From a virus: 37,663 bases of DNA. Location: positions 1 through 37,663 of IMG/VR virus record IMGVR_UViG_3300024921_000004. One strand, 5' to 3'. Shown one piece after another: positions 21,184 through 36,353 of this stretch. Under the pieces are notes generated by a model. It was not told the DNA's origin. It was given only the letters and a program-made list of their open reading frames with translations, and ran no database searches. Position 1 is the stretch's first letter, and the number at the start of each line of letters is the position of its first letter. Position numbers and translations under genes: made by a program.

Positions 21184-22851
21184 TTACTTAAATGTTAAAA
21201 GGTCAATCTCAATAGGTTCCGGCAAGACGCTGGAGGTCTCTGTATTTAGCATCGCATCTGCGCCGACAACAATCGCATCGACGTCGATCACCATACCGGC
21301 GCGGTCTTGTTGCTCTATCATTTTCTGTTCCAAGCGCTTAATGGCGTCACTGGCGCGGTTGAGGCGCTTTTCTTCCATACGGTTGGGCGCAATGGCATCA
21401 ATCGCGTTGATCAAATGAGCGTCGCATATCCAGCGCCCATCCAGGGTGCGAATGATGGCCACGCTGTCATCCATCAGGTCATATTCCAAGATCACCTTGG
21501 TACCATTAAACGCTTCCAGATCGGCGTTCTTGTAACTGCGCTTGCCGTGGGCGATGCTTGCCCGCTTAACCGTCAATTCAACCGCTTGACGCTTGAGTTC
21601 TATCTCTGCCATATTCGCAGGTATCGGCACCAGCCCCTCCCATAGTGAGGCTTTGGTAACCCCTTTGTTTTCAGGGTGCGGACGGCTGGCGTAACGCTGC
21701 AACCAATCGTTAAACGCCTCGGTAAACTCGGCTTGGGTCGGCAATTGCAGTCTGCCAGCCTTAATTTCGCGCACGGTTTCCTGCAGTACCTCGGCCGCCA
21801 TGTCATGACCGCAGTAAAACCGAGGCCGCCACAGCTTTAAAAAATCCCGCTTTATCTCGACAAACAAGCGCTCGATCCAACCCTTGCCGTGCGGATTGCC
21901 AGGCAATGAATGGATGATTTCCTGCACACCGGCGCGTTTGTAGAACCCAATCTGATCATCGCTCATCAGCTTGTTCTTGTAGCCCGAGCCGTTATCGACA
22001 TAGATAAACAGCGGCACGTGATTCCAACGAGCAAAGCATTCCGCCCACATGTTCTGCACGGCTACCGTGCCTTCGTGCTCATCGGCCCGCCAGCCCACTA
22101 CTACGCGGGACCTCAAGTCAATAGCCACAGTCAGCTCAGGACGCCATATTTTTCCGGTTACCGGGTGAGCCAGATACACGTCGGCCCGATAACCATCGGC
22201 TACGTATACATCGCCGGGCAAAGCGTTATCGGTGCAGCGGCGGATATATTGCTTCTTGGTCAGCCGATACAGGTTCTTGCCGATCCGCGCCGGGCTATTG
22301 CGGCCGAGCATGGCGGGGACGCTGGTTAAATACGCCCGAACCTGATCGTAGGTGCAGGCAAATTTATCCACTTCCACCAGTTGCCTATAGACCACCGACA
22401 TTTCAGGCTGCCCCGGCTGGTTGTAATACTCCAGAGCGGGACCCCACCAAATCGGGATTTCACTCAGCACCCGGCCTTTGTGATTCTCCAGCAGCTCGAC
22501 CCTGCCGCCGCCGACTGTTTTGATCTTACGCCATTCAAAAATGGCATTACGCGCCGGGGCCAATCGATCCGCTTTGGCGGCACGCTTAAGGGCAGCTTGC
22601 AGGTATGGGTTAAGCGAACCCACTTCGGCTTTAGCCAATAAAAGCTCAATAGCCTTACTGGCGCTTAGGCCGGTTTTCTCCAGCTCAAGCACCGCTTCAA
22701 CTATATCCAGCCTGGCTGTCGCTACCTCACGCTGGCTTTCGCTGGCCTCTCTCCACGGATCGCGCTGACGTAGCGCAATCACCTGTCCTGTAGTTCTGAC
22801 GGCGGGCGTCGCTTGATCAAGCCGCTGAATAAAGGCATTCTGTTTGCGCAT
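21184..22851 (-). CDS. A: DDE transposase A (Mu A-like)
   Basis: The 555-residue protein catalyses strand cleavage and transfer for replicative transposition. An N-terminal DNA-binding part (about residues 1-200) precedes the RNase H-fold core. I place the acidic triad at DVYVADGYRAD (about 220), FIYVDNGSGYKN (about 285) and GKGWIERLFVEIKRD (about 325). A Mu-type C-terminal beta-barrel and a tail that could bind B (EQKMIEQQDRAG) follow. It is shorter than Mu A (663 residues). Its target sites are probably the TTGAATTCCGGA repeats at both ends. Confidence 0.9.
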   Translation of the reverse strand: MRKQNAFIQRLDQATPAVRTTGQVIALRQRDPWREASESQREVATARLDIVEAVLELEKTGLSASKAIELLLAKAEVGSLNPYLQAALKRAAKADRLAPARNAIFEWRKIKTVGGGRVELLENHKGRVLSEIPIWWGPALEYYNQPGQPEMSVVYRQLVEVDKFACTYDQVRAYLTSVPAMLGRNSPARIGKNLYRLTKKQYIRRCTDNALPGDVYVADGYRADVYLAHPVTGKIWRPELTVAIDLRSRVVVGWRADEHEGTVAVQNMWAECFARWNHVPLFIYVDNGSGYKNKLMSDDQIGFYKRAGVQEIIHSLPGNPHGKGWIERLFVEIKRDFLKLWRPRFYCGHDMAAEVLQETVREIKAGRLQLPTQAEFTEAFNDWLQRYASRPHPENKGVTKASLWEGLVPIPANMAEIELKRQAVELTVKRASIAHGKRSYKNADLEAFNGTKVILEYDLMDDSVAIIRTLDGRWICDAHLINAIDAIAPNRMEEKRLNRASDAIKRLEQKMIEQQDRAGMVIDVDAIVVGADAMLNTETSSVLPEPIEIDLLTFK

Positions 22852-22854
22852 GGT

Positions 22855-23919
22855 TTAACCCCCTTTTTTAGGGCGGCCTGGGCCTTTGGGCTGGTTATCC
22901 TGGCGCTTCTTCTCGCGCTCGGCCTTGGCCGCAAAGAGCTTGCGCTCAAGCAGCTGATATTCAAACAGCCAGTCTGATGCCTCGGCATCAGTCAGGCGAT
23001 GCTCGCCAAGCACCGATTCCGGCAGGTCGCTCACCGGCGCGTAGTCCTTAATTTTGTTCAGTGTGTCCATGGCACGAGCAGTAACGACATGGGCCGTTAC
23101 CCAGATTTGCTCCAGGCGCATCCGCCATTCCGGTGTTGACGTGTCCTCGTTTGCGGTCTCTTCAAACATCGCCCAAAGGCTGTTTAAAGCCAATTCGCAT
23201 TCGGCTTGGTGTACTAAACATTCCTCGCGGACAAAGTGGGTTTGCGGGCTGAACTGATACACCGGGTTGCGTTGCTTCATCTTGGCGATCACTGCATCCC
23301 GGTGCTCTATCTCGCTCTCCAGCCGCTTACCACGCTGTTCAGCGGAACGCAGGTGCTCGCGGAGTTGGCCGTAGGTCATCGTTTCGGCAACACCCAGCAT
23401 GTCCTGGTCTTTTTCGGTGCCCCGATCAAAGACCTCTTGCGGCAGCCCGGCCAGCAGTAGCGCCTGTTTTTTGCCTATCGTGAGCACCTTGCTGCGCTGG
23501 GCTTCGGGTAGCCGGGCGTAGAACCTGGCGATCTTGATGCACTCGTAAACACGCGGCTCTGATAAGCCTCTGCTCGCAATAAAATCCTTAAAGGTATCGA
23601 CTACGCCCGTCGTAGTCGCATTTATCAACACCTCTTGTGCCGCCCAAAAGGCCGCTCCAGCGCGACAGGCTTTTAATAAACTCTGGTTCAACTCCTCCGT
23701 GCCTAAGTCCATCAGCTCTTTAGCGTTCATGGAGGTAAAGCCGAAATCGTCCAGACACACTTGTAGTTGAGCCCTGCTTGCATCATCAGTAGCGAAGATC
23801 ATTTCCTCGCCAATTACCGGCTGCAATGCCCGGACTTTTATAACAGGAGCCTCATCTGCAGACGCAACTGGCGCACTGCCAATGCCTAGATCTATTTCTT
23901 CTTTGACTTTTTTAGTCAT
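22855..23919 (-). CDS. DUF3102-like early protein
   Basis: This 354-residue protein contains LLKACRAGAAFWAAQEVLIN followed by FIASRGLSEPRVYECIKIAR and LTIGKKQALLLAGLPQEVFD, a layout like DUF3102, which I associate with phage replication or regulation. A coiled coil follows (REHLRSAEQRGKRLESEIEH). The C-terminus ends KGPGRPKKGG, an AT-hook-like GRP motif that may bind the minor groove. It is coupled to its neighbours by short overlaps and gaps; the family call is tentative. Confidence 0.55.
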   Translation of the reverse strand: MTKKVKEEIDLGIGSAPVASADEAPVIKVRALQPVIGEEMIFATDDASRAQLQVCLDDFGFTSMNAKELMDLGTEELNQSLLKACRAGAAFWAAQEVLINATTTGVVDTFKDFIASRGLSEPRVYECIKIARFYARLPEAQRSKVLTIGKKQALLLAGLPQEVFDRGTEKDQDMLGVAETMTYGQLREHLRSAEQRGKRLESEIEHRDAVIAKMKQRNPVYQFSPQTHFVREECLVHQAECELALNSLWAMFEETANEDTSTPEWRMRLEQIWVTAHVVTARAMDTLNKIKDYAPVSDLPESVLGEHRLTDAEASDWLFEYQLLERKLFAAKAEREKKRQDNQPKGPGRPKKGG

Positions 23920-24472
23920 GACGTACTCCCAAGGATTTACTGCGGCAATTGATACCGGCTGTCTGAATGCGGCTCAGCATGCGTTGCACATTGCGACGAT
24001 GCTTGCCTTGCAAACCGGCGATTTCGCGCTGGCTAAAGCCGTAGTGATATAAATCCAGAGTTTCGCGCCATTGCGGATGCTTGGCGAAAATACCGTGCAG
24101 CAATTGCGTATACGCGGTGTGCTCGGTATTGAAACGGCTCATGAAGTGGTTGAATAACACTTCGGTACATTCATCCTGGTATGCCTCAATCAATGCACGT
24201 AATTCAGGCTTAACCTTGCTTGGGCTAATCGTGTACAAAAATCCCGGCAGCATAGCCAATGGCAAGCACAGCATTTCCTGCAAGCCACCGGCTGAAGGTG
24301 TCACCAGAATGGTGATACCTTTGCTGAACTTTTCATTAAGTTTGCGGTGCTGTACTTGCCACGCTAAACCCATGTTTTCGACGATTGGTTTCATCGCAAC
24401 ATACGGCTTGCCGTCACGCTCGATGGCGACAATGGTTTGTTGACGAAAGGGGATGGTGATGAGGTTGCTCAT
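23912..24472 (-). CDS. phage antirepressor-like protein (P22_AR_N type)
   Basis: The 186-residue protein opens with the antirepressor N-terminal domain: IPFRQQTIVAIERDGKPYVA and MKPIVENMGLAWQVQHRKL, then LAMLPGFLYTISPSKVKPEL. The C-terminal part (FSQREIAGLQGKHRRNVQRM) looks like a helix-turn-helix. It is the second gene under the early promoter, after the gp16-type protein, with GGAG before the ATG. It may counter the repressor encoded divergently nearby. Confidence 0.75.
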   Translation of the reverse strand: MSNLITIPFRQQTIVAIERDGKPYVAMKPIVENMGLAWQVQHRKLNEKFSKGITILVTPSAGGLQEMLCLPLAMLPGFLYTISPSKVKPELRALIEAYQDECTEVLFNHFMSRFNTEHTAYTQLLHGIFAKHPQWRETLDLYHYGFSQREIAGLQGKHRRNVQRMLSRIQTAGINCRSKSLGVRHD

Positions 24473-24486
24473 GCTGTTTCTCCGAT

Positions 24487-24657
24487 TTATTTAAGGCCGA
24501 GTGCCACGGCGACGTCGTGCGCTTTGCCGCGCCGCCCCTTGTTAACGCCGTTGAGTACGGCAATCACGGTTTTCGGTTCGAAGCCACGCTCCCGCGCCCA
24601 TTCTGAATAGGACTTGCCTTCTTTCTCAAAGCGTTGCTTTACTTGCTCTAGATTCAT
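24487..24657 (-). CDS. BcepMu gp16-family small DNA-binding protein (Ner-like role)
   Basis: This 56-residue protein (MNLEQVKQRFEKEGKSYSEW..., with ARERGFEPKTVIAVLNGVNK and GRRGKAHDVAVALGLK) is the BcepMu gp16 family, a tiny helix-turn-helix protein found next to the transposase operon. It is the first gene from the early promoter, in the place of Mu ner, and has a good GGAG site. It probably turns down the early or repressor promoter. Confidence 0.8.
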   Translation of the reverse strand: MNLEQVKQRFEKEGKSYSEWARERGFEPKTVIAVLNGVNKGRRGKAHDVAVALGLK

Positions 24658-24701
24658 TGTTAATCTCCTTTGCTATTGTTAAAAAAACTAAAGTACGGCT
24701 T

Positions 24702-24730
24702 ATTATGGGAAAGAAATCTTTCCCTGTCAA
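24702..24730 (-). promoter_or_regulatory. early promoter with operator palindrome in its spacer
   Basis: On the minus strand TTGACA (24730-24725) and CATAAT (24707-24702) are 17 bp apart, a near-ideal sigma-70 promoter. The spacer holds GGGAAAGA-AA-TCTTTCCC (24707-24724), 8-bp perfect arms. A repressor dimer there would block the promoter directly. On the plus strand TATTAT (24701-24706) could serve as the repressor's -10 with TTGTTA at 24676, at an unusually long 19-bp spacing. Confidence 0.75.
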
Positions 24731-24751
24731 CAACTAAATGGAAATATTTGC

Positions 24752-25159
24752 ATGAGTATTGGCGCAAGATTGCGAGAAGAGCGGGAACGCTTAAAGCTCT
24801 CCCAAACCCCATTTGCCGAGGCTGGTGGTGCAACAAAACAAACACAGCATGCTTATGAGTCAAACAGGACACCGCCTAAAGCCAATTATCTGGCAAAGGT
24901 CGCTAGGCTAGGGGTTGATGTAGGCTATGTAATTACCGGCATCCGTGCCGAGAATGTCGCCCATACGCCAACAGAAATGGGTTACCTTAGGCATTGTCGT
25001 GTTTTGGCCACTAAGGGACTGGAAGGTATGGGGCTAAAGGGGTTAGTTTTTTTAAGGGAATCTAATGGCCTCACATGGGACGACATGCCCGAGGTTTATC
25101 AATCAATGCAAGCGGGCGAACAAATCGACTCAACCGGGGAGAGCGAAAATGCGTCTTGA
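24752..25159 (+). CDS. XRE-family phage repressor
   Basis: The 135-residue protein has an N-terminal helix-turn-helix: ARLREERERLKLSQTPFAEA followed by GGATKQTQHAYESNRTPPKA, typical of the lytic-cycle repressors of BcepMu-type phages. It is transcribed divergently from the early genes across the operator at 24707-24724. It lacks the usual LexA-like protease domain, so RecA-driven cleavage is not expected; relief may come from the antirepressor. Its end overlaps the next gene by 11 bp. Confidence 0.85.
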   Translation: MSIGARLREERERLKLSQTPFAEAGGATKQTQHAYESNRTPPKANYLAKVARLGVDVGYVITGIRAENVAHTPTEMGYLRHCRVLATKGLEGMGLKGLVFLRESNGLTWDDMPEVYQSMQAGEQIDSTGESENAS

Positions 25160-25670
25160 TATACCGCTTGATTTACCCGGACATTCCTTTGTTGACCAGC
25201 TTAAATGGCTGGAGGGCTGGGCCTGTCTTGATGCAAGCACATTAACCAAGTGCGCTGACGACCTTGCGACAGCCGCCAAGAACGAGCCGAAAGATTTTAT
25301 CGCCATCATCTGCGAATGCGTGAATCATGCCCCGTGGCAATGGCCGGATTACACGGATTATGAGGAAGAAAACGGTCGGTTCTTTAGCGGCGACCTGCTC
25401 AAAGATATGGCTGAGCATATCTATAGCAAATACCGCTCGAACAAAATGGCGATTTATCGAAAATCGCAAATCGATGCAATTAAACACCTTCGACCCTATT
25501 GGAGCCTGTCAGGCCGTTGTGCTTCGGACGATGATAGCGTAATAACCCTAGACGCTGATGATGCTTTCTGGGAAACGCATTGTGTACCCTGGAATTGTGA
25601 AAAACTGGATTGCCGGTGCCGAGTGTCCTCGTTGTCCGAATATGAAATGCGTAACTCCCAAGCCCAATAG
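25149..25670 (+). CDS. MuF-like C-terminal domain protein beside the repressor
   Basis: I choose the ATG at 25149, overlapping the repressor end. The first 100 residues of this 173-residue protein are not recognised. The C-terminal 60 residues match the end of the MuF domain in the prophage's own F protein: AIKHLRPYW versus AVKHLRPFW, LDADDAFWETH versus LSADDPWWNTH, and DCRCRVSSLSEYEMR versus GCKCRVHSLSEFEAR. MuF is a minor head protein domain, so its presence in the lysogeny region is odd. It could be a free-standing fragment, a regulator of head assembly, or part of an immunity or toxin module with the next gene. Confidence 0.65.
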   Translation: MRLDIPLDLPGHSFVDQLKWLEGWACLDASTLTKCADDLATAAKNEPKDFIAIICECVNHAPWQWPDYTDYEEENGRFFSGDLLKDMAEHIYSKYRSNKMAIYRKSQIDAIKHLRPYWSLSGRCASDDDSVITLDADDAFWETHCVPWNCEKLDCRCRVSSLSEYEMRNSQAQ

Positions 25671-25710: not shown

Positions 25711-26103
25711 ATGATCAAATACAGGGACGTTACCGGCGTGCTCCTCCATTTCTCGCACGAGCAAATTGAGGCCTTGGTGGAGGCGCTATCGCCGGAGCAA
25801 AGGCGGTTTTCTGCCATCCTGGGCAATACGATCAAGCAGCCGCATGAAATATGGCGGGGCTGGGTGGTCGACGAAACCGACAAAGGCCAGTGGCACAACG
25901 TTCGATCTTACTTGCAGTACCTCGATCTTTCGCAAACCGATGCTGGCGTAGCGTTCGGTGTCGCCACCCTCCAATTTGCCTACCGTTCCCGCTGGGAGCT
26001 TGCAAATGTCGGTTTGGTGTTCGGAACTCAGGAGAGCGTCATGAAGCAGGTTGACAAAAGAATCCGCATAGGAAGCATCGAGTACTCAAACATTCAGCAT
26101 TAA
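25711..26103 (+). CDS. PBECR2-like nuclease-fold domain protein
   Basis: This 130-residue protein resembles the C-terminal domain of F in this prophage: IKQPHEIWRGWVVDETDKGQ versus IEPDEVWWVWVKDHQDNGR, followed by WHNVRSYLQYLDL versus WRLKRRYLRAFEL. That domain type is known as PBECR2 (phage-Barnase-EndoU-ColicinE5/D-RelE-like nuclease), often at the end of MuF proteins. In-frame TAA at 25678 rules out a simple upstream fusion. It follows the MuF-like gene by 40 bp, so the pair reproduces the order MuF then PBECR2 as two genes. Activity is not shown. Confidence 0.6.
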   Translation: MIKYRDVTGVLLHFSHEQIEALVEALSPEQRRFSAILGNTIKQPHEIWRGWVVDETDKGQWHNVRSYLQYLDLSQTDAGVAFGVATLQFAYRSRWELANVGLVFGTQESVMKQVDKRIRIGSIEYSNIQH

Positions 26104-26179
26104 CGCGGCAGAGCGAGAGCGACTAAGACTTGCTCAAACCCCATTCGCAGCTACACCTAAATCAACCGATTACACTTAA
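26099..26179 (+). pseudogene. remnant of a second XRE repressor
   Basis: Directly after the PBECR2 gene the frame reads ERERLRLAQTPFAATPKSTD before a TAA, matching EERERLKLSQTPFAEAGGAT of the intact repressor at 24779-24840. The DNA is also alike (CAAACCCCATT is shared). No start codon is visible, and the rest of the gene is gone. It suggests that the repressor region was duplicated or replaced in the past. The following 21 bases lead into the next gene. Confidence 0.55.
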
Positions 26180-26200
26180 ACAAAGGAGCTGAAACAGCCA

Positions 26201-26689
26201 ATGAAAAACTTCGATCTGCTAATGGCCTTTATTGCTGCCACCCTGAACAAAATGCCAGACGATTGGGGAAAGCCACGCGAATTATCCGGCATGGAAGTGG
26301 TAGAGGCATTGTGGCCGCTTAACGATGTGTTCCGGCCGCATCTGCCGGATATAGGCGCATTATCTTACGACCCAGCCCTGGAGACCGAAGCGGATCAAGC
26401 GATAGAAAATTTTATTCGCGGCGATGGCGGGGCAGCTTGGGATAATTTGCCGCCCGCTATTTGGCGGATATTGTTGGAGCGTCATACTCAAGCGCTGGTT
26501 GTCGCCGCCGCTAATGAAGCGGCGGGTAATCCGCTTATGACGATACCGGAAGACTTACCGAAACATGCATGGCTAGGCGCTGCAATGTTGTTTTTAATAT
26601 ATCAAATGCAGCTCCCTTATGAAGTGAAGCATCGACTTCCAGACGAATTCCCTCCAGCCGGTTCTCCGGCATCGCACGCGCTACATTGA
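26201..26689 (+). CDS. hypothetical protein of the lysogeny region
   Basis: The 162-residue protein is not recognised. AAAGGAG stands about 11 bases before the ATG. It is mostly helical and acidic, with VVEALWPLNDVFRPHLPDIG in the middle, NLPPAIWRILLERHTQALVV and a hydrophobic AWLGAAMLFLIYQMQLPYEV near the end. It is on the same strand as the repressor and may be expressed in the lysogen. The downstream part overlaps a possible small gene on the other strand. Confidence 0.55.
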   Translation: MKNFDLLMAFIAATLNKMPDDWGKPRELSGMEVVEALWPLNDVFRPHLPDIGALSYDPALETEADQAIENFIRGDGGAAWDNLPPAIWRILLERHTQALVVAAANEAAGNPLMTIPEDLPKHAWLGAAMLFLIYQMQLPYEVKHRLPDEFPPAGSPASHALH

Positions 26690-26741
26690 AAGCTTGTTGA
26701 TGTCGGGTTTTGAGGGTGTGCAACCATTGTTGTTTGCTCAT
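26535..26741 (-). CDS. possible small protein at the end of the minus-strand cassette
   Basis: A 68-codon frame (MSKQQWLHTLKTRHQQAFNV...) starts after GGAG at a good distance and lies in line with the minus-strand accessory genes. It overlaps the last 155 bp of the plus-strand hypothetical gene, so one of the two is probably false in part. No family is recognised. Confidence 0.25.
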   Translation of the reverse strand: MSKQQWLHTLKTRHQQAFNVARAMPENRLEGIRLEVDASLHKGAAFDILKTTLQRLAMHVSVSLPVSS

Positions 26742-26805: not shown

Positions 26806-26821
26806 TCTAAAATCTGTTTTG

Positions 26822-27085
26822 TCATCTAATTTCATGTGTGTTTTTTGGTACGTTGCCGCCCGGCAGGGCAACCCACAACGTGACGCAGGGGATAAGATTG
26901 ACGCATAACCGTCGGTTGTACGATGACCAATGGCCGCCAATCCAAAAACTACCCCATCGAAATAAAATCCCGATTTTCGGCCTGGGTAGATCGGATAAAT
27001 ATGCAATGTAGATGAATATAGCTATCCTCTCTATAAATGCCAGGGCGACACCAATGCATAGTAGCTCGGTTATGATGGGGTTCAT
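26822..27085 (-). CDS. small membrane protein of the accessory cassette
   Basis: This 87-residue protein has a hydrophobic N-terminal half (IITELLCIGVALAFIERIAI and FIYIAYL), probably one or two membrane spans, and a second hydrophobic part later (LCVNLIPCVTLWVAL). Its ATG overlaps the TGA of the gene before it. No family is recognised. Coupled translation with the previous small membrane protein suggests that the two act together. Confidence 0.5.
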   Translation of the reverse strand: MNPIITELLCIGVALAFIERIAIFIYIAYLSDLPRPKIGILFRWGSFWIGGHWSSYNRRLCVNLIPCVTLWVALPGGNVPKNTHEIR

Positions 27086-27240
27086 TGCCTCTTATCCTCA
27101 ATCTTTCGGCACTCGAAAACCTCTTCGTTAACATAAAACTTTCCAAGTTTTTTACATTCTGTGGCGATGACATGATGGGCATGTCCCCAGCCAATGATGT
27201 AGCCCAAGATGGGGCCAAGGATAAGGAAAAATACATTCAT
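27082..27240 (-). CDS. small membrane protein
   Basis: The 52-residue protein starts in an ATGA overlap with the stop of the DUF2786 gene. MNVFFLILGPILGYIIGWGH is one membrane helix; the rest is polar with two cysteines (ATECKKL and VFECRKI). No family is recognised. It is translationally linked to both neighbours. Confidence 0.55.
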   Translation of the reverse strand: MNVFFLILGPILGYIIGWGHAHHVIATECKKLGKFYVNEEVFECRKIEDKRQ

Positions 27241-27935
27241 TGTGACTGCCCCAGTTGTGCACCGCGTTTACTTTGCACCGGCTTATGAATCGATACATCC
27301 CTGGCTGCATAGGTGCCGGCCACAATCGCCTGATGATCGCTGTCTTTTTTCAGTTCAGGGGCTTTGCGGGTGTCGCTTTTCAATGAATCACCCCAACGCT
27401 GCTCTTTGTAGGCTGCGATGGCGGCTTTATCTTGCTCTGTACCGGCAAACTCCTGGACTTGCTGGCTAATGCGCCAGACCCATGCGCCACAGAAGATGTC
27501 GGCCATCCTGATTTTGTTTTCGCGCTTGTAGCGTTTGAGCGTGGCTCTGTAAGCGGCGCGGTCTTTTATGATTTGCCGACGCAGCACGTCGAATGTATAG
27601 CTGGCCAGCTCCGGTTTAATACCTAGACCCAAAAACTTCACACAGCTATCTGTCCAGCCGCTACCCGAGGAAATCACTACCTCGCAACCAAATGCCGTAG
27701 CAATGGTGTTAGTCAAGCCACAAAGATACACAGGTGGTCTGTTTTTGCTGCCGGCTTTACTGTGCGACTCATGTACTTGGGCAGCGGCCACGTCACCGCT
27801 AGTTACGTTATATTTCTTCATCAGTGCGTCGGCTTGGCGCTTGGCTGCCTCGGCTTCCCCTGGGTTGTCTGATGAGGCTAACGCAAGGCATTTGGCAATT
27901 TTGATAGCGATTCTTTTAAGCTCTTCGTTGGTCAT
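27237..27935 (-). CDS. DUF2786-family phage protein
   Basis: The 232-residue protein opens with the DUF2786 motif: RIAIKIAKCLALASSDNPGE followed by AEAAKRQADALMKKYNV. The middle (ATAFGCEVV, VKFLGLGIKPELASYTFDVL) and AYKEQRWGDSLK fit the C-terminal domain that accompanies it. The family is frequent in Mu-like phages; function is unknown. It runs against the late operon next to it, so its message probably starts in the 27936-27995 gap and is made in the lysogen or early. Confidence 0.75.
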   Translation of the reverse strand: MTNEELKRIAIKIAKCLALASSDNPGEAEAAKRQADALMKKYNVTSGDVAAAQVHESHSKAGSKNRPPVYLCGLTNTIATAFGCEVVISSGSGWTDSCVKFLGLGIKPELASYTFDVLRRQIIKDRAAYRATLKRYKRENKIRMADIFCGAWVWRISQQVQEFAGTEQDKAAIAAYKEQRWGDSLKSDTRKAPELKKDSDHQAIVAGTYAARDVSIHKPVQSKRGAQLGQSQ

Positions 27936-27995
27936 GGCGGCACCGGAGGGTTGATTTGTTGCGCATCCTACTCTGTCAATCTGTTCTTCTCCTCT

Positions 27996-28042
27996 CTGGA
28001 AATGTTTCCAGCCTAATTAAACCTCGCGCGCACGCGTAAGCT
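27996..28042 (+). promoter_or_regulatory. putative late promoter D for lysis, packaging and head genes
   Basis: CTGGAAATGTTTCCAG at 27996-28011 is followed by 25 bp and then TAAGCT (28037-28042), a poor but correctly placed -10. The first late gene starts 68 bp from the palindrome. It is the only copy of the element directed rightward. Confidence 0.6.
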
Positions 28043-28079
28043 CTAACTTCGCGTTTTACTTAACTGTTTGGAGCTTACT

Positions 28080-28424
28080 ATGAAATTACCGCGCCTGTCC
28101 CTTTGGTTGGTCATCAGTGTGTTGCTGTTGATTGTGGTCGCCGTGCTGTATCCGCAGCAACTGGGCGTTAGTCTTTACAAGCTGTCGCTGGTGTCTATGG
28201 CCGGTGTGATCGGCTACTGGTTGGATCGGGCGTTGTTTCCGTATGCCCGGCCCGATGGTTATTTGGCGCACACCCAAGTACATCGGTATAACCTGCATCT
28301 GGACGACCCAGAAGACGCTGATTACCGGGTTAATGCTGGCTACCATGTCGTGTTTGCTGCCGCGATGCTGCGACGGGTGATTATCGTAGCAGCGGCAATG
28401 CTGGCGATTGGGTTGGGGGCTTAA
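28080..28424 (+). CDS. holin-like membrane protein
   Basis: This 114-residue protein has an N-terminal pair of membrane spans (LWLVISVLLLIVVAVLYPQ; LSLVSMAGVIGYWLD) and a third at the C-terminus (VIIVAAAMLAIGLGA). A polar middle contains HTQVHRYNLHLDDPEDADYR. It lies directly before the endolysin, as holins do in BcepMu-type phages. I use the ATG at 28080 with GGAG in front; a TTG 12 bases upstream is possible. The holin role is inferred from position and topology. Confidence 0.65.
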   Translation: MKLPRLSLWLVISVLLLIVVAVLYPQQLGVSLYKLSLVSMAGVIGYWLDRALFPYARPDGYLAHTQVHRYNLHLDDPEDADYRVNAGYHVVFAAAMLRRVIIVAAAMLAIGLGA

Positions 28425-29078
28425 ATGCAAGGGCTTTGGCTGCGATCCTTGAAAGGGCATAGGCTGGAGTATTTCAGTTGGTTCCTAATAGCGGTGCTCA
28501 TGGTGGTCGTGGCAGTCTGCTTTACTCCCCCCGCAGATGCTCAGGAAATCCCCCATGCCGCAATCAAATACCGTGCCGATCTGACGCGTACAGCTCATGC
28601 AACATGGGGACTGGATGCGCCGGTTGCGGCGTTTGCTGCACAAATTCACCAGGAGAGTGGCTGGAACCCGCAGGCCGTGTCTCATGTGGGTGCGTTGGGT
28701 ATGACGCAGTTTATGCCGGACACGGCAAAGTGGTGGTGTGCCAAGACAGGTACGTCGGCTATTGATTGCCAGCCCAGTAATCCGGTCTGGGCGATGCGGG
28801 CGCTGGTGGGCTATGACCGATGGCTATTCGAGCGGGTAGCCGGTAGCTCTGATTATGACAAGCTGTGGGCGGCTTTGCGTGGCTATAACGGCGGCTTGGG
28901 ACATTGGCAACAGGAAGCCAAACTGGCTGGGTCTGTGCAGCGCGAGGCTGTGGATCTCGCTTGCGGTACGGCCCGGCGTAGTCGGCAATTCTGCCCGGAA
29001 AATCTGGGGTATCCGCAGCGGATTCTTAATCGTTTACAGCCGCTTTACCTTGGATGGGGTTTGGGGGTGTCACCATGA
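28425..29078 (+). CDS. lytic transglycosylase endolysin (SLT type)
   Basis: The 217-residue protein cleaves peptidoglycan glycan strands. An N-terminal hydrophobic segment (FSWFLIAVLMVVVAVCF) with a PADAQE end looks like a signal peptide or SAR anchor. The SLT core shows IHQESGWNP (catalytic Glu near residue 76), GALGMTQFMPDTAKWW and LRGYNGGLGHWQQ. The family and position match the BcepMu endolysin. Its end overlaps the next gene by 4 bp. Confidence 0.85.
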   Translation: MQGLWLRSLKGHRLEYFSWFLIAVLMVVVAVCFTPPADAQEIPHAAIKYRADLTRTAHATWGLDAPVAAFAAQIHQESGWNPQAVSHVGALGMTQFMPDTAKWWCAKTGTSAIDCQPSNPVWAMRALVGYDRWLFERVAGSSDYDKLWAALRGYNGGLGHWQQEAKLAGSVQREAVDLACGTARRSRQFCPENLGYPQRILNRLQPLYLGWGLGVSP

Positions 29079-29485
29079 CTCGCATTTATTTGGCTGGGCC
29101 TATGTCAGGCCTGCCGGATGAAAACTATCCGGCGTTTAATTCGGCTGCGGCACACCTGCGGACGCTAGGCTTTGATGTTGAAAATCCTGCTGAGAATACC
29201 ACACCGGCTTGCGGCAGTTGGGCGGGCTATATGCGGTTGGCTATTACGCAGTTACTGAGCTGTGATTGTGTGGTGTTTTTGCCGGGATGGAGTGTATCTA
29301 AAGGAGCATGCATTGAGCAGCGGCTAGCCGCCGACTTGTGCATACCTGGGTACATGATCAGCCGTGTACTACGCGATCCAGAGGCAGTGAAAGCGTTTAC
29401 AACTATGGTGAAGAACTCTGTGGCAAAAGGTTATTCAGTCAATAAAGTATTACCTAAACCCAATCCAGAGCAAGGTGACGTATGA
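29075..29485 (+). CDS. DUF4406 protein (nucleoside 2-deoxyribosyltransferase-like)
   Basis: This 136-residue protein opens MTRIYLAGPMSGLPDENYPA, the DUF4406 signature related to nucleoside 2-deoxyribosyltransferases (Rossmann-like fold). CDCVVFLPGWSVSKGACIEQ is the second family motif. I use the ATG at 29075, coupled to the endolysin stop. It lies inside the lysis cassette, between endolysin and spanins; the reason is unknown. Possible roles are nucleotide metabolism or signalling. Confidence 0.75.
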   Translation: MTRIYLAGPMSGLPDENYPAFNSAAAHLRTLGFDVENPAENTTPACGSWAGYMRLAITQLLSCDCVVFLPGWSVSKGACIEQRLAADLCIPGYMISRVLRDPEAVKAFTTMVKNSVAKGYSVNKVLPKPNPEQGDV

Positions 29486-34440: not shown

Positions 34441-35730
34441 GTGGTAGATTCTAAATATCCCGATATGCAACTGCCGTTTTCTGAGGCTATTGATTTTTTC
34501 AAAAAGAAAATCAAACTGCCGACATCGGGCTGGACTGATATTTGGCAAGAGCAACACAGCCATGCCTTTGTGGTGACGGGGGCAACCCATGATGCTCTGG
34601 TAGAAGATTTCTATAATGCCATAGTCAAGGCTAAGTGGGCTGGTGGTGGCTACGAGGAGTTTAAGCAGAGCTTTCAGGATATCGCCGCCAAGCATGGCTG
34701 GTCATACAATGGCTCGCCAGGGTGGCGCAGTAGAATAATCTACGATACCAACATTACTCAGTCTTATAACGCCGGGCGCTACCAGCAGATGATGGCGGTT
34801 AAGCATCTTCGGCCGTTTTGGACATATGACCATACAAGTATTGAGCATCCGCGCCTTGAGCATAAGGCATGGGACGGGTTGGTTTTATCAGCCGATGATC
34901 CTTGGTGGAATACGCACTATCCACAAAATGGCTGGGGCTGCAAATGCAGGGTGCATTCTCTGTCTGAATTTGAAGCGCGTCAGAAATGGGAGCAAAAAGG
35001 CCTGTCCGGTCCCGATCAATCCCCTCCTATCGAAATGGAGGAGAGAGTCATCGGTAAAAACGGCAGCAATCCGCGCACAGTGTGGGTACCTAAGGGTATT
35101 GACCCAGGCTTTGCCTATAATCCTGGCAAAGCTTTTCTTGAGCCCCATACTGTGCCGCCTTTACAGGGTTACGATGCGGTGCTAAAACAGCGTGGCGAGC
35201 CGTGGCCAACGGGTTTTAATCCGCCATTACCGCCCAAGCCCACTAAAGTGCCGGCTCATATCGTGCTGCCCGCCGATACGGCGCCGGAAGTGGCTGTGCA
35301 AGATTTTTTGGAAGTCTTCGGAGCAACTATGGAACAAGGCGCAGCATTTACCGATGCAGCGGGAAGTACGTTGGCAGTAACTAAGGCGCTATTTCAAGAT
35401 GGGCAGGGAGATTTCAAGTGGCTGGCTAGTGCTAAAAAAGCCGAACGACTTCGGTACATTAATCTACTGGCCATGACGCTGATTGAACCAGATGAGGTTT
35501 GGTGGGTATGGGTAAAAGATCATCAAGATAATGGTCGGTGGCGTTTAAAACGTCGTTATCTGCGAGCTTTTGAGCTTGATGGCTCTGCGGAATATGGTGT
35601 GTCGGTATTTGAGTGGGGTAGAACAGGGTGGACGGGTTCGACAGCATTCATGACAAATCAACCATCTGAGGCATTGCGCCAGGAATACTTTGATAAGCAG
35701 CGTAATGGTAGACTGGTTTATCAGAAGTAA
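34441..35730 (+). CDS. F: minor head protein F (MuF domain plus PBECR2-like domain)
   Basis: The 429-residue protein starts with GTG. The MuF domain (about residues 60-190) contains FYNAIVKAKWAGGGYEEFKQ, AVKHLRPFWTYD, LSADDPWWNTH and GCKCRVHSLSEFEAR. A linker (DPGFAYNPGKAF; PPLPPKPTKVPAHIVLPAD) leads to a PBECR2-type domain at about 340-429 (IEPDEVWWVWVKDHQDNGR; RYLRAFEL). MuF proteins sit at the portal and can be injected; the C-terminal domain belongs to a nuclease/toxin-like group. The same two domains occur as separate genes next to the repressor. Confidence 0.85.
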   Translation: MVDSKYPDMQLPFSEAIDFFKKKIKLPTSGWTDIWQEQHSHAFVVTGATHDALVEDFYNAIVKAKWAGGGYEEFKQSFQDIAAKHGWSYNGSPGWRSRIIYDTNITQSYNAGRYQQMMAVKHLRPFWTYDHTSIEHPRLEHKAWDGLVLSADDPWWNTHYPQNGWGCKCRVHSLSEFEARQKWEQKGLSGPDQSPPIEMEERVIGKNGSNPRTVWVPKGIDPGFAYNPGKAFLEPHTVPPLQGYDAVLKQRGEPWPTGFNPPLPPKPTKVPAHIVLPADTAPEVAVQDFLEVFGATMEQGAAFTDAAGSTLAVTKALFQDGQGDFKWLASAKKAERLRYINLLAMTLIEPDEVWWVWVKDHQDNGRWRLKRRYLRAFELDGSAEYGVSVFEWGRTGWTGSTAFMTNQPSEALRQEYFDKQRNGRLVYQK

Positions 35731-35831: not shown

Positions 35832-36353
35832 ATGCAATTTGAGATTGAATTTAAAGCGGATCACCTTAAGCGCGTGATGGAAGCAGTCCGGCGAGAAATC
35901 GCTACGCCGCAGGAAATGCTGGGAAGCATGGGTGAGTCGTTACTGCGGGTGAATCGGGAGCGTCATGACAAGGGGCTGGCACCAGATGGAACTAGGTGGA
36001 AAGAATTGTCTCCACTGACCCTGGCTCAGGGGAATCGCAAGGGTGGGCCGTTGAATAAGTCTGGCGATCTATTACACAGTTTCCATTATCAGGTAACGGG
36101 CAATAGGTTGGTGTTGGGATTTGATGGCGCATTTGAAGCCAAAAAAGCTGTCTGGCACCATTTTGGAACCGACCCATACACTATCGTGCCAAAACATAAA
36201 GCAGTATTGGCATTTGCAGGTATCGTTAGTAAGCGGGTTAATCATCCGGGACTGCCGAAAAGACCTCTAGTTGGTTTTCCTGTATCTGATCAAAAATTGG
36301 TTGCTGATGTAACTGCTGATCATTTGGTACGCGTTTTAAAGCGCGTTCGATGA
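35832..36353 (+). CDS. G: virion morphogenesis protein G
   Basis: The 173-residue protein fits the Mu G/phage virion morphogenesis family: LGSMGESLLRVNRERHDKGL and GTRWKELSPLTLAQGNRKGG, then GDLLHSFHYQVTGNRLVLGF near the middle and LPKRPLVGFPVSDQKLVADV near the end. It acts in tail and head joining in Mu. It is the last gene before the right end, while in Mu the protease follows directly. The spacer 35731-35831 in front holds no gene. Confidence 0.8.
   Translation: MQFEIEFKADHLKRVMEAVRREIATPQEMLGSMGESLLRVNRERHDKGLAPDGTRWKELSPLTLAQGNRKGGPLNKSGDLLHSFHYQVTGNRLVLGFDGAFEAKKAVWHHFGTDPYTIVPKHKAVLAFAGIVSKRVNHPGLPKRPLVGFPVSDQKLVADVTADHLVRVLKRVR

Follow-up and report, generated by a model that had tools for sequence, protein, structure and literature searches.

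How did a scrap of repressor gene come to lie behind the intact repressor of a transposable phage, and from which repressor does it descend? The question is posed by a record of 37,663 bases that stands alone in IMG/VR (IMGVR_UViG_3300024921_000004), the whole of which was analysed and is here called the window. Its genes mark it as a transposable phage of the Mu type, with transposase A, a B-like ATPase, proteins resembling Ner and an antirepressor, a portal, MuF and further head and tail genes; genes without a family match bear names that we presume from the sequence and from general knowledge of Mu-like phages. Close relatives of the repressor are found in the viral records L002 (IMGVR_UViG_3300024971_000051, repressor at 2498-2902), L003 and L004, in a MAG of Methylomicrobium (L008) and in genomes from the family to which it belongs, and from where these relatives occur, the host is probably a methane-oxidising bacterium.

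The resident repressor is an intact XRE-type protein of 135 aa, encoded at 24752-25159 on the plus strand (Pfam HTH_31, E 1.4e-6; HTH_3, E 7.5e-6). Divergent from it are the genes for a Ner-like DNA-binding protein (24487-24657, minus strand; phrog_925, E 3.6e-23) and an antirepressor-like protein (23912-24472, minus strand; P22_AR_N, E 5.6e-37). In some relatives the operon divergent from the repressor also holds a second XRE gene (L032 7493-7933, minus strand; L033 8386-8712, plus strand). Behind the repressor, and overlapping its 3' end, a small MuF-like gene of 173 aa (25149-25670, plus strand) has a C-terminus that matches phrog_220 (E 1.5e-6) and is 45% identical over 69 aa to virion MuF head proteins; the overlap places the coding sequence of a head-protein domain inside what is presumably the lysogenic operon. 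It is followed at 25711-26103 on the same strand by a gene for a solo PBECR2-like protein of 130 aa (PF18810, E 1.6e-5), whose 25.6 bits fall just below the family cut-off of 27.1. The virion MuF protein (34441-35730) has a full C-terminal PBECR2 domain of its own (Pfam, E 1.6e-29), and the phage thus has two PBECR2-type genes.

Beyond the PBECR2-like gene, an earlier note made from the sequence alone had reported the remnant of a second, broken repressor at 26099-26179. The peptide and the shared DNA on which that claim was built are indeed present, with frame and strand as given; the repressor homology is confined to 26110-26148, and the rest of the claimed span is just the surrounding open stretch. 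These 39 nt of the plus strand, equivalent to codons 10-22 of the gene, are a direct repeat of bases 24778-24816 of the resident repressor, matching at 29 of 39 positions on the same strand 1,332 nt away, and their translation is ERERLRLAQTPFA against ERERLKLSQTPFA in the resident protein. The agreement with the intact repressor of L002 is 34/39 bases, and a blastn search of the scrap segment against the loci of relatives returned L002 at 34/38 (E 9e-9, 51.8 bits). The resident 39-mer reached at most 26/39 in 60 codon-shuffled windows, and in 6 shuffled windows the best of all the in-frame 39-mers of the L002 repressor reached 27/39. XRE genes of these phages that are more distantly related reached only 16-23/39 against the scrap, that of L007 being scored without optimising the register. 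A comparison with unrelated XRE genes had been named in advance as the one that could overturn the claim, and against them as well as against chance the DNA identity is clearly higher, as is expected of a pseudogene fragment of this group's repressor; the broken repressor is therefore borne out.

The homology has abrupt ends. The 49 nt before the scrap and the 52 nt after it match the L002 repressor no better than shuffled sequence does (shuffles score as high in a fraction 0.73 and 0.59 of cases, respectively), and an extension into either flank was rejected. We also rejected a weak tblastn alignment that extended the match to the resident repressor beyond the stop codon and into the next gene (25.6% over 121 columns, E 0.002), since that gene is explained by another relative, L036, and the alignment is gapped and unconvincing past 13 codons. 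A 151-nt query spanning the joint, run with blastn against 311 related genomes, gave nothing above 36.5 bits and served as a null, although the scoring settings of this search and of the one that gave 51.8 bits may differ. In IMG/VR, the motif GCTCAAACCCCATTYGCNG occurred in a single contig besides the window's own record, within the intact L002 repressor, and in no other phage were the same 39 nt seen as a fragment.

On the left, the scrap is separated by a joint of 6 nt (26104-26109, plus strand) from the end of the PBECR2-like ORF at 26103, and no homology was found for the flank upstream. The right joint (26149-26200, plus strand) spans the 52 unassigned nt already mentioned, includes a possible ribosome-binding site, AAAGGAG, before 26201, and found matches at chance level only among the 311 genomes. 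It leads to an ORF of 162 aa, p162 (26201-26689, plus strand), which corresponds to the C-terminal portion of a protein of 402 aa in genome G128 and whose DNA homology to L036 begins at 26204. Antisense to p162 is a minus-strand ORF of 68 aa (26535-26741), similar and likewise open in L007 (3175-3381, minus strand).

The scrap itself must be dead. From the previous stop codon onward there is no in-frame ATG, GTG, TTG or CTG, and the frame closes at 26177-26179. Its codons 10-22 compare with HTH_3 residues 7-52 of the resident protein and cover less than one third of the helix-turn-helix domain; hmmscan assigned the 31-aa scrap frame to no family. With neither a complete helix-turn-helix nor a translatable open reading frame, and most of the DNA-binding domain missing, it cannot act as a repressor, and the working repressor is likely the intact gene at 24752.

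The surroundings in which this relic lies are composite, for the nearest relative shifts almost gene by gene through the control region. It is L002 for the ParB-like gene (74%), L034 for the antirepressor (75% aa identity), L003 for Ner (91% aa) and again L002 for the repressor (83% aa, followed by L032 with 79% and by L003 and L004 with 73% each). It then becomes L004 for the MuF-like gene (56%), L035 for PBECR2 (54%), L036 for p162 (67% aa, with L007 at 71% over the 3' part), L007 for the ORF at 26822 (82%), L002 for the DUF2786 gene (86%) and L007 for the lysozyme-like gene (93%). At the DNA level, identity to L002 is 85% at 21937-23926 and 86% at 27240-29283, but only 76% in the repressor stretch at 24698-25133; the scrap, at 89% over 38 nt, stands at the level of the outer flanks. 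This pattern fits an L002-like backbone that would have lost its own repressor by exchange, although 38 nt are too short for proof. On both sides of the scrap the nearest relative changes, as at a joint of immunity-cassette exchange. Two repressors in tandem were sought in the loci of the relatives and occurred in none, so that nothing observed directly attests the insertion of a cassette in one step; nor was any relative found with the presumed pre-exchange arrangement.

The earlier note had also spoken of the MuF-like and PBECR2-like genes as a pair, but the relatives show that they form no fixed unit. A complete relative of the MuF-like gene (56%) stands behind the repressor in L004 (6444-6971), with no solo PBECR2 gene there. 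The 54% relative of the solo PBECR2-like gene lies in L035 (6976-7362), 1.7 kb behind a repressor in genome G109, and a truncated one lies behind the 79% repressor of L032 (genome G122); in both cases the MuF-like gene is absent there. We therefore reject a single inherited pair, and since each gene occurs without the other, they look like separate accessory genes. The relatives of the solo PBECR2 gene came from a family-wide genome search; searches with its protein had found nothing among the contigs of genomes and viruses or in phage records, and the MuF-like gene used as a single query in viral contigs found nothing either.

Could the scrap be a copy of the resident repressor itself? A tandem duplication that trapped the MuF-like and PBECR2-like genes between the two copies and left the distal one to decay would account for the same strand, the same order and the 29/39 identity, and a duplication was one of the origins first envisaged for the cassette. 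A duplicate should have the resident gene as its closest relative, and this is not the case, although nine informative sites do not make the point decisive. The scrap is as close to L032 (29/39) as to the resident gene, six other repressors reach 23-27/39, and only L002 attains 34/39, a level never reached between the intact resident and L002 repressors, whose best in-frame 39-nt window out of 120 gives 33/39. At the nine sites where those two repressors differ, the scrap sides with L002 at seven and with the resident allele at two; on 39 nt such a preference is only suggestive (sign test, p 0.18). In the Ala codon of LAQTPFA one base is common to the scrap and L002 only. The greater nearness to L002 disfavours duplication, as does the want of tandem repressors in any relative, and we regard this origin as improbable: on these base comparisons the scrap is more likely to derive from an L002-type gene than from the resident one.

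Somewhat less improbable, though still unlikely, is the suggestion that the scrap is a stub of a repressor-like gene brought in by the donor of the PBECR2 gene, in which case it would say nothing of this phage's former repressor. Its start 6 nt after the PBECR2 stop codon is in keeping with such an origin, but in L035, with its solo PBECR2, and in L032, with the truncated one, the next gene is not a repressor. Hardly any credence can be given to a chance or generic XRE helix-turn-helix likeness; ERERL.L.Q is admittedly common at the start of XRE domains, yet neither the distant XRE genes nor the shuffles (at most 26-27) come near 34/39 at the DNA level, and the motif was met in just one other IMG/VR contig. 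It is just as hard to believe that the scrap still functions, whether as a peptide or as a short linker for recombination. The frame does remain open for 35 codons and is shared with p162; against this stand the missing start codon, the stop at 26177-26179, the loss of more than two thirds of the helix-turn-helix domain and the occurrence of the fragment in no other phage.

Recombination between related phages, either replacing or inserting sequence, is thus the best supported explanation, and the 39 nt are likely a non-coding remnant of an L002-type repressor that stayed behind at a mosaic joint as related Mu-like phages recombined. Most likely, a repressor of the L002 type would formerly have stood in the control region or been joined to it. 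Pieces of related phages would have been combined here through illegitimate or short-homology recombination, so that the ner gene, the repressor and the MuF-like and solo PBECR2 genes of today came to lie left of the scrap and the truncated 162-aa ORF right of it, with all but 39 nt of the old repressor cut away. We infer recombination as the cause, as well as the order and the direction of these events; the exchange may have been a single event, and it may have changed the immunity specificity of the phage. Of the proposal that a cassette had been inserted or duplicated, what survives is the assembly of the control region by exchange, as the changing nearest relatives indicate; the duplication is opposed by the L002-like bases of the scrap, and a one-step insertion has no tandem-repressor relative to attest it. 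The broader notion that 5'-end stubs of repressors are repeated recombination points, at which MuF-like and PBECR2-like cassettes are loaded and exchanged behind the repressor in this phage group, strikes us as very doubtful.

The scrap is ordinary phage mosaicism, a real footprint of the usual shuffling of control-region genes and not a new system. The Mu-like phages of Pseudomonas aeruginosa (the D3112, DMS3 and PaMx73 group) have mosaic immunity regions with variable repressors and Ner proteins and with accessory genes (PMC4378225), and the window resembles them in its divergent repressors and Ner proteins, its accessory genes in regions of plasticity and its gene-size mosaicism. It differs in keeping, at the joint, a 39-nt stub of another repressor allele, and its relatives are found in Methylomicrobium-type genomes. 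With the L002 repressor the scrap shares the LAQTPFA residues along with 34 of its 39 bases, whereas in L002 the gene is complete and the genes behind it are unrelated. What the scrap provides is a readable trace of repressor exchange in a transposable phage, one that indicates which allele was lost or joined, and the region behind the repressor appears as a place where accessory genes settle, among them genes for head-protein and RNase-like domains. The scrap leaves the general picture of phage evolution unchanged and is of little interest outside this phage group.

Solo PBECR domains have been described in phages, and a stand-alone form is known for the PBECR clade (PMC5512222); the neighbour of the scrap is likewise a stand-alone PBECR2-like protein. 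Most virion MuF-fused PBECR2 copies have an STxFM-type motif and a final R-x-G-x-L-[VF]-[FY]-K pattern. Unlike these copies, with their conserved C-terminal motif, the solo genes (25711-26103 here; L035 6976-7362) have neither, and judged by these motifs they may lack activity, or may act against the virion copy. A further rearrangement concerns a Mu gpG-like ORF that follows MuF in the window (35832-36353); its relatives in L007 (3476-4003) and L032 (9549-10103) instead lie on the minus strand in the control region, and the L007 gene separates two stretches that are adjacent in the window at 26812/26819.
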